Assembly: GCF_000512895.1 (NCBI RefSeq)
Contig: NZ_CP007033.1
Coordinates: 464,001-528,000, forward strand
Reading direction: 5' to 3'
Length of the DNA stretch: 64,000 nucleotides
DNA from: Dehalobacter restrictus DSM 9455
GTDB lineage: Bacteria; Bacillota; Desulfitobacteriia; Desulfitobacteriales; Syntrophobotulaceae
In this document: in pieces, positions 49,960-57,780 of the stretch
How positions within the stretch are numbered: position 1 is the first letter of the stretch
How the letters are laid out: the number at the start of each line of letters is the position of its first letter
Made by a program: the position numbers and the translations under genes
Notes under the pieces: generated by a model
Databases searched by the model: none
What the model saw: the letters and a program-made list of their open reading frames with translations, nothing else
Told to the model about the DNA's origin: nothing

Positions 49960-50073
49960 GTGAAAGTAAGACCTTCTGTGAAACCGATTTGTGAAAAGTG
50001 TAAAATTATTAGACGGCACGGAAAAGTAATGGTTATTTGCGAAAATCCGAAACATAAGCAACGCCAGGGCTAA
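49960..50073 (+). CDS. rpmJ: 50S ribosomal protein L36 (zinc type)
   Basis: The 37-residue protein, [20 protein letters not shown] onward, has the C-x2-C and later Cys/His zinc ligands ([11 protein letters not shown]). The start is GTG 49960 behind GGGAGG. It is too short for ordinary open-frame cut-offs but is unmistakable. Confidence 0.97.
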
Positions 50074-50079
50074 ATCGAG

Positions 50080-50107
50080 GATGAAGTTCGAGGTTCGAAG
50101 GTCGATG
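50080..50107 (+). repeat. Heptad tandem repeat tract between rpmJ and rpsM
   Basis: Seven-base units GATGAAG, TTCGAGG, TTCGAAG and GTCGATG lie in tandem just after the rpmJ stop. The rest of the 205-base gap to rpsM is unlike the compact gaps around it and shows no gene or clear promoter. The same unit recurs at 53053-53087. Confidence 0.7.
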
Positions 50108-50278
50108 ATTAAGCATCAAAGATCTAGCAGACAATACCGGACAACGAACTTAGAATATCGATTAGCAATATGTGCGGGTTGTCGCCTTTGGACCGGATTA
50201 ACACTAACAAAGTCGGACGCTAAATATGAAAATCAAGTAACTGGAACTAATTATCGAACATGGGGGTGTGAAATTTAG

Positions 50279-50650
50279 ATGGCACGTATCGCAGGGGTGG
50301 ATATACCTCGGGACAAACGTGTTGAGGTTGCACTTACCTACATCTATGGTATCGGCAATTCTCAATCCAAAAAAATCCTGACAAAAACACAGATTAACCC
50401 TGACACCAGGGTCAAAGATCTTACAGACGACGAAGTCGCCAAGATCAGGGAAACAATTGATAAAGAATACAAGGTCGAAGGCGATCTGCGTCGGGAAGTG
50501 TCCCTTAACATTAAAAGACTGATGGAAATCGGCAGTTATCGTGGCCTTCGCCATCGTCGTGGACTACCTGTGCGCGGACAGCGGACCAAAACCAATGCCC
50601 GTACACGCAAAGGTCCCGCAAGAGCAATTGGCGGAAAGAAGAAAAAGTAA
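50279..50650 (+). CDS. rpsM: 30S ribosomal protein S13
   Basis: The 123-residue protein begins [20 protein letters not shown] and has [20 protein letters not shown] and [26 protein letters not shown] site precedes ATG 50279. It opens the alpha operon. Confidence 0.98.
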
Positions 50651-53038: not shown

Positions 53039-53052
53039 GATGAAGGCCTAAT

Positions 53053-53087
53053 TTCGAAGTTCGAAGTTCGAGGTTCGGTGTTCGATC
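53053..53087 (+). repeat. Heptad tandem repeat tract between rplQ and truA
   Basis: Five tandem 7-base units: TTCGAAG, TTCGAAG, TTCGAGG, TTCGGTG, TTCGATC. They begin 14 bases after the rplQ stop. They are followed by a GCAGATAACGGAAACCGGA segment that resembles the DNA after the tract at 50080-50107. Further on, CTTCGAACTTC (53208-53218) is complementary to the units, and TGAACAT/ATGTTCA (53187-53206) forms a hairpin. No gene lies in the 245-base gap. Confidence 0.75.
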
Positions 53088-53283
53088 GCAGATAACGGAA
53101 ACCGGATACCAGGAATTGATTGATACCGGGTAACGAAACCAAATAAGCTATCGATAACCATTAATCACACACATGAATCGTACCTCTGAACATTGACACA
53201 TGTTCAGCTTCGAACTTCCTGTTGGCTCTTTTGAAAACAAGCATACCGTCCAGTTCAATATTATAAGATTGCTGGAGAAAAAA

Positions 53284-56132: not shown

Positions 56133-56445
56133 TTTTGAAATTACCATCCTAGTAATAAATAAAGGAAGATACGCAATTAATCCCGAATATATCAGATAAT
56201 CCCGAATATATCAGATAATCGCTTTGGAAGCTGCAACGCACCTGACCTTTCAAAGACTCGTGCTTAATTCCATTTCAAATTAATTTCAAAGAGTAAAAAA
56301 GAGTAAAAAACTAAAAAGAAGAATTGTCCATTTTGCCCAGAAGCATTGTTTATAAATTGTTTAGATTCTGTTTACAGATATTCAAGATATTGGGAGTAAA
56401 ATAAGATCAGGAAGCTTTCCAATATTTGAAAAGGAGTAAGTGAAG
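56133..56445 (+). other. Non-coding gap between cwlD and the secreted-protein gene, with short tandem duplications
   Basis: No gene is seen in these 313 bases. A 19-base unit (TCCCGAATATATCAGATAA) occurs twice in tandem at 56181-56218, and GAGTAAAAAA occurs twice at 56291-56310. The DNA is AT-rich, and no strong terminator follows cwlD. A promoter for the next gene should lie near 56340-56400 but no clear match stands out. Confidence 0.6.
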
Positions 56446-57699: not shown

Positions 57700-57719
57700 A
57701 CAGATGCTGTTAGATGACA

Positions 57720-57773
57720 GATAACGAATAACAAGTAACAAAACGAATAACAAATAGCAAATAGCAAATAGCT
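57720..57773 (+). repeat. Heptad tandem repeat tract (AATARCA type)
   Basis: Seven-base units GATAACG, AATAACA, AGTAACA, then AAACG (5 bases), then AATAACA, AATAGCA, AATAGCA, AATAGCT. The tract lies 20 bases after the stop of the secreted protein. Its unit differs from the TTCGAAG tracts but shares the 7-base period, and its start (CAGATAACG) is also seen next to the tract at 53053. Confidence 0.75.
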
Positions 57774-57780
57774 TAAAATT

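Follow-up and report, generated by a model that had tools for sequence, protein, structure and literature searches.

A worn heptad-armed spacer between rpmJ and rpsM of Dehalobacter restrictus, and the placement of heptad tracts in its relatives and in other phyla

The STRR of cyanobacteria are heptad repeats defined by the high copy number of one 7-base word in the genome. A rule of location has been stated by Rehm et al. (2015) for the heptads GGGAATC of Xanthomonas and GGGGA(C/T)T of Nostoc, and the excerpts of that article used here also describe inverted pairs, numerous in Xanthomonas (70 in Xcc) but few in Nostoc, and give an earlier proposal of heptad slippage quoted from their reference 33 (PMC4692102). 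The heptad stem of the Nostoc tRNA-Leu intron is described, again in excerpt, as having undergone one-sided changes of 7 nt and 14 nt (PMC4476775).

A first-pass annotation of a stretch of the Dehalobacter restrictus genome had likened a tract of 7-base units after rpmJ to the heptads of cyanobacteria and had known of no description in this group. The likeness is apt, the same build and placement being published for Nostoc and Xanthomonas in the excerpted text (PMC4692102). Heptad tracts in this order were likewise without a description among the matches listed in the openly licensed literature. The words 'tandem' and 'intergenic' do not occur in the D. restrictus genome paper (PMC3910700), nor 'tandem repeat', 'intergenic' or 'heptamer' in the genome paper of a sister Dehalobacter. 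As Rehm et al. already state the location rule and report inverted pairs in those excerpts (PMC4692102), neither of the two rules described below is new; the addition made here is the reach of the placement rules to other words and other phyla. The reported tract is itself minor, and its interest lies in the heptad tracts with one placement rule that occur in Clostridia and many other phyla.

Heptad tracts in the window and genome of D. restrictus

The window analysed was a stretch of 64,000 nucleotides, positions 464001-528000 of the single-contig 2,943,336 bp genome of D. restrictus (G000 below), and coordinates are given within it. With the rpmJ stop at 50073 and the rpsM start at 50279, the 205 non-coding bases reported earlier between the two genes are exact. 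The features are as follows.

50074..50278, + strand: rpmJ-rpsM spacer of 205 nt with worn heptad arms (orthologous gaps measured in 28 genomes)
50080..50107, + strand: left arm, four heptads, two of them exact TTCGARG at 50087-50100 (sequence, Tandem Repeats Finder, word count)
50243..50259, + strand: remnant of the right inverted arm, just 5' of the rpsM ribosome-binding region (sequence, fold, intact counterparts in G003, G004 and G006)
53048..53085, + strand: second and better heptad tract, TTCGAAG, 4.7 copies, about 10 nt past the rplQ stop (Tandem Repeats Finder, shuffles)
57717..57775, + strand: third period-7 tract, words AATAACG and AAATAGC (Tandem Repeats Finder, shuffles, congener comparison)

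The units at 50080-50107 read GATGAAG, TTCGAGG, TTCGAAG and GTCGATG, two of the four matching TTCGARG, and an additional unit, ATCGAGG (50074-50080), adjoins the rpmJ stop codon. The G-rich strand of this left arm points away from rpmJ. Tandem Repeats Finder gave the reported tract 3.3 copies, 81% matches and a score of 32 (threshold 30). Since 40 shuffled windows had a mean of 1.2 period-7 rows at a score of at least 30, the tract is unremarkable by score alone. By word it is beyond chance: TTCGARGTTCGARG with at most one mismatch was found three times in the window, once at the reported tract and twice, overlapping, at 53053, against 0.13 expected. Of 2000 shuffles of the rpmJ-rpsM gap, 0.5% reached its period-7 signal. 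The heptad tract claimed after rpmJ is therefore real on its word excess, but it is short, half of its units are inexact and its score is marginal. Tandem 7-base units beyond chance, weak by score at this site, are clear at 53048-53085 and in relatives. Scores were 45 for the 53053-53085 tract and 52 for the 57717-57770 tract, and no period-7 row of 45 or more was seen in 40 shuffled windows. The predicted fold of 53040-53225 had a z of -2.34, but this region runs into the start of the next gene and the value was given no weight. A perfect 19-base tandem repeat of 2.3 copies lies at 56178-56220.

In the predicted fold of the rpmJ-rpsM gap, 50243..50259 pairs with approximately 50075-50093, although the fold as a whole is no better than shuffles (z -0.12). 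Promoter and terminator scans of this gap gave nothing convincing. A 65-aa open reading frame, 50081-50278, runs across the whole gap; it was dropped as a small protein because of a one-base deletion inside it in the congener G002.

Exact TTCGARGTTCGARG was found five times in the genome, always on one strand of the record, against one for the reversed control, and two of the five sites represent a single tRNA-Val/tRNA-Asp spacer that is repeated in two tRNA arrays. Allowing two mismatches gave 53 sites against 82 for the reversed control, hence no excess, and a genome-wide repeat family was unsupported once mismatches were allowed. A sample of 464 kb, made up of the window and 20 stretches of 20 kb at even spacing, had five period-7 gap tracts, against 0.3 in shuffles; other periods gave 0-5, and period 7 is not clearly above them. 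With few exact copies, no mismatch excess and comparable other periods, D. restrictus has a handful of sites, in ribosomal protein gaps, in tRNA spacers and as heptad remnants just before 5S rRNA. By the first-pass annotation's own test, which asked for further genomic copies beyond chance, the outcome is mixed. In D. restrictus itself the scan yields five against one with no two-mismatch excess, but across 41 relatives the excess is clear. The high copy number of STRR is similarly lacking in D. restrictus (five exact copies against one) and present in relatives, for example G036 and G022.

The tRNA-Val/Asp and Asp/Phe spacers of D. restrictus are about 150 nt long, other tRNAs in the arrays being 1 to 43 bases apart. 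Their arms are intact and their predicted folds had z values of -5.43 and -4.14. A scan of five loci of relatives and of one tRNA/rRNA locus of D. restrictus found no known RNA family in their spacers.

The rpmJ-rpsM gap and its copy number across relatives

An RpsM match was obtained in 39 of 41 genomes, and the gap was measurable in 28 of the 30 loci taken. Its length is 20-65 nt in seven genomes and 204-272 nt in the five Dehalobacter-genus genomes. Eight genomes have 92-95 nt, all but one of them from group g12, which we take to be the Desulfosporosinus group; another seven have 112-194 nt, and G022 has 129 nt. The earlier statement that the tract interrupts a tightly packed cluster thus stands against the seven relatives with 20-65 nt, but less so against others, where gaps of 92-194 nt mostly lack such arms.

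Left heptads at the rpmJ stop together with inverted units before rpsM were present in six of the 28 gaps (G000, G001, G002, G003, G004 and G006). These arms are worn in G000-G002 and intact in G003, G004 and G006. The G022 gap has the left arm only, and the left arm is absent from 21 of the 28. The middles of the gaps in G000, G003, G004 and G006 gave no reliable alignment among them. When G000 gap DNA was used as query, full-length matches were obtained only in G001 and G002, and elsewhere only heptad stretches. Predicted gap folds compared with shuffles had z values of -5.83 in G004, -3.45 in G003 and -5.27 in G006 (150 of 153 nt), with the ends paired in all three.

Other elements were noted in these gaps. 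Seven g12 genomes (L226, L227, L228, L230, L231, L232 and L233), with gaps of 92-94 nt, share a conserved hairpin-like TTTCGGTTGCGCGGCTGATTGGAG ... CTCCAATGCACCGATTT, with variation. It is a candidate ribosomal protein leader, and matched no Rfam family at threshold in L226, L228 and L230. L209 and L212 (G005 and G015, of one genus) have a different element in common, with CGCCGC ... GCGGC pairing potential and without heptads.

At the reported tract, the units are the same in G000, G001 and G002, with an additional exact unit in G004. The rplQ tract (53048-53085) also has an equal copy number in G000-G002, and no alignable tract was found in G004. At 57.7 kb the repeat is 8 bases longer in G000 than in three congeners. 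The tRNA-Val/Asp spacer is longer in G001 by two heptads (14 bases), all in the right arm. Copy-number change, which the first-pass annotation had proposed to look for between strains, was therefore not seen at the reported tract in the two nearest congeners but was found there in G004 and at other tracts. A change in copy between close strains at the locus, as in a phase-variable SSR, was not observed among the congeners G000, G001 and G002.

Abundance, orientation and inverted pairing of heptad tracts

The exact two-unit TTCGARG pattern was present in 22 of 41 genomes, and counts against the reversed control were 33 to 0 in G036, 17 to 0 in G030, 10 to 0 in G028 and 9 to 0 in G022. In the family member G022, 400 kb picked without regard to tracts contained 54 period-7 gap tracts against 0.0 in shuffles. 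Periods 14 and 21 gave 41 and 27, and other periods 1-9, so that only 7 and its multiples are high. This is the densest case (L234-L253), with about one period-7 tract per 7 kb, mostly GGACAAT and also the telomere-like TTAGGGG. The heptad words of the relatives include GGACAAT, TTCGAGG, TCCGARG, CAGGAGT, GAGTTAT and TTAGGGG, among others.

A scan of a genome contigs collection gave at least 119 stretches with three exact TTCGARG units. The matches listed include Desulfosporosinus, Halomonas, Geobacter, Nitrospira, Chloroflexi, Verrucomicrobia, Acidobacteria, Polyangia, a cyanobacterium, Vibrio and others, which is a lower bound on the phyla with such tracts and not a rate. Two further arrangements were seen. 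On Nitrospira-group contigs (L095, L099, L103, L135 and L162) a compact hairpin recurs, with TTCGAGGTTCGAAGTTCGAGG and inverted heptads joined by a short loop, and it resembles a multi-copy element. In Polyangia 4_bin.22 (L127, L124, L143, L157 and L158) long TTCGAGG arrays adjoin 6-base GAGGTC-type arrays on several contigs.

Orientation was scored relative to gene edges from a small codon-model caller, not from annotation, and the same caller underlies the gap lengths across relatives and the counts of tracts by period. As tracts that share a gap or a genome are not independent, p values are only a guide. The order-level set held 105 gap tracts, of which four were undecided and 101 were scored. 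The set from named genomes, among the matches listed (119 loci), held 126 tracts, 23 in called genes and 103 in gaps, 81 of the latter with two unequal edges. The G-rich strand pointed away from the nearer gene edge in 82 of the 101 order-level tracts and, among the matches listed, in 61 of the 81 TTCGARG tracts of named genomes. At no more than 60 nt from the edge these figures became 67 of 76 (67 to 9) and, among the matches listed, 51 of 60 (51 to 9). Start and stop edges behave alike: within 60 nt, outward and inward tracts numbered 24 to 3 at order level and 18 to 1 in named genomes at starts, and 43 to 6 and 33 to 8, respectively, at stops, the named genomes again being those among the matches listed. 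Over both sets, with the named set among the matches listed, convergent gaps were outward by 22 to 3, and the rule was weaker in divergent gaps, 12 to 6. The median distance of a tract to the gene edge on the 5' side was 28 nt. As with heptad SSRs elsewhere, the tracts, including the reported one, are intergenic, close to a gene edge and outward in their G-rich strand.

Two or more tracts were held by 24 of 74 tract-bearing gaps. In 22 of these 24 the first tract was G-rich and the last C-rich, and the reverse order was never seen (0 of 24). Inverted pairs are therefore found in multi-tract gaps, and at the reported site the pair is worn. Inverted ends were also looked for in gaps in general. 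At a score of at least 24 such ends were found in 2 of 139 gaps of D. restrictus (0.4% of shuffled pairs; those matches were not heptads), in 0 of 93 in G003, in 0 of 68 in G037, in 5 of 100 in G022 (1.0% of shuffled pairs) and in 7 of 103 in G036 (0.7%), the last rate being inflated because sampling was mostly at tract-bearing contigs. Inverted ends as a trait of all gaps were rejected on these rates.

Origin of the heptad arms and comparison with described systems

We favour, at a probability of roughly 60%, the reading that the tract is the worn arm of a heptad-armed intergenic spacer that grew by slippage and has no needed function. It builds on what was observed, namely the anatomy, the orientation rule, the inverted pairing in relatives, the heptad-sized copy changes and the wear in D. 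restrictus. Such a spacer occupies the room from a gene's stop codon to the start region of the gene after it. Both ends carry a few degenerate 7-base units, G-rich strand outward from the gene, and, being inverted, they can pair to close a hairpin over a middle that species do not have in common. Heptads may arise and grow by slipped-strand mispairing in DNA free of selection, in which case gene edges would merely be where selection halts their growth, and the spacer would probably serve no needed function. Slippage at heptads was reportedly suggested by Mrazek in 2007, said to be reference 33 of Rehm et al.

Slippage in unconstrained DNA is favoured because the changes are heptad-sized and one-sided, G.U is not preferred, the left arm is absent from 21 of 28 gaps and the arms have decayed in D. 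restrictus. Mismatches in the arms were 17 G.U and 10 A.C (p 0.25), giving no sign of selection on RNA pairing, and RNA-level selection on arm pairing was rejected on this count. Several points tell against slippage. The outward choice of strand and the matched inverted arms are not predicted by simple slippage. The hairpins predicted at z -3.4 to -5.8 in G003, G004, G006 and the two tRNA spacers could be selected. The arms are kept in G003, G004 and G006 around unalignable middles, which would be surprising in neutral DNA without renewal of the arms. Finally, period 7 does not clearly stand out in G000, with 5 tracts against 0.3 where other periods give 0-5.

Selected hairpins would fit a functional transcript hairpin that insulates rpsM translation, stops transcription or guides the processing of tRNA and ribosomal protein transcripts. 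The strong predicted folds of the D. restrictus tRNA spacers (-5.43, -4.14) and of the gaps of G004, G006 and G003, and the closeness of tracts to gene edges, speak for such a role. We nevertheless consider it unlikely, given that shuffled sequences fold as well as the reported gap does (z -0.12), that 21 of 28 orthologous gaps do without the left arm, that the outward rule is independent of gene direction (22 to 3 in convergent gaps, both sets), that G.U is not favoured over A.C and that the 14-base growth in G001 is one-sided. MITEs are multi-copy, with conserved terminal repeats, related interiors and a target-site duplication. A small non-autonomous element of this kind, with the heptad arms as terminal inverted repeats, is distinctly improbable here: the middles are unshared between copies, and the arms differ in unit number and register and adjoin gene ends, not a fixed target. 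It would account for inverted arms at both ends, for spacer sizes of approximately 150-270 nt, for the location inside otherwise tight tRNA and ribosomal arrays, and for the recurrence of arm sequences at many sites in relatives.

The outward G-rich strand and the inverted pairs, whatever the gene direction, would also be given by a polymerase that heals broken DNA ends by adding heptads outward, with two such ends subsequently joined. This seems very unlikely, as no enzyme tracks with the tracts. Ku (PF02735) was found in 33 of 41 genomes and was absent from the tract-richest, G022 (a draft, 93% complete), on which non-homologous end joining was rejected as the source. Reverse transcriptase (PF00078), in 32 of 41, was rejected likewise, being absent from the tract-bearing G000, G004 and G026. 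A chance short repeat in a long spacer is hardly credible. The score of 32 is near the shuffle level and the genome has no two-mismatch excess, but the window excess is specific to the word (3 against 0.13) and the orthologous gaps of three other lineages bear the same arms at the same two places, by which chance was already disfavoured.

A broader proposal, which we regard as a long shot, is that bacteria have a general process by which heptads are added 5'-to-3', from each side of an intergenic gap outward, G-rich strand leading, in genome-specific words. If true, it would leave inverted heptad arms flanking gaps whatever the gene direction and would be akin to end-healing, or to telomere-like synthesis, at broken ends that are joined afterwards. 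One mechanism, not many regulators, would then explain the rule in Clostridia, Xanthomonas, Nostoc and many other phyla. The origin of heptads becomes testable, in that the rule concerns DNA ends and gaps and not gene direction, and one family holds both tract-rich and tract-poor relatives for comparison.

Our preferred reading, of spacers with slippage-grown arms, can be set beside the described systems, each taken from excerpts of its source. The heptanucleotide elements of Geobacter metallireducens are also four or five tandem heptads and partly intergenic, but they are multicopy aligned families, GGGACCG or MTYCTGA, that also occur inside genes (PMC2700814). The TAACTGA repeats of Beggiatoaceae, Cyanobacteria and Bacteroidetes are intergenic heptads, some in ribosomal protein operons; they differ in being nearly all direct (one indirect), mostly just 5' of start codons and of fixed word (PMC4679880). 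Closer in form is P6b of the Nostoc tRNA-Leu intron, a hairpin of complementary 7-nt repeats with 14-nt insertions and one-sided 7-nt indels, although these repeats sit inside a group I intron with the words TDNGATT or NNTGAGT (PMC4476775). The G-rich heptads of Xanthomonas and Nostoc differ in word, TTCGARG here being without the G runs needed for quadruplexes, and in hosts, here Clostridia and many other phyla, and the arms here close a hairpin around an unshared middle (PMC4692102). As TTCGARG has no run of three G, a G-quadruplex is not expected. With those heptads the tracts described here share 7-base intergenic units and convergent inverted pairs and, as here, relatives have tracts at the same gene positions with different lengths (PMC4692102).
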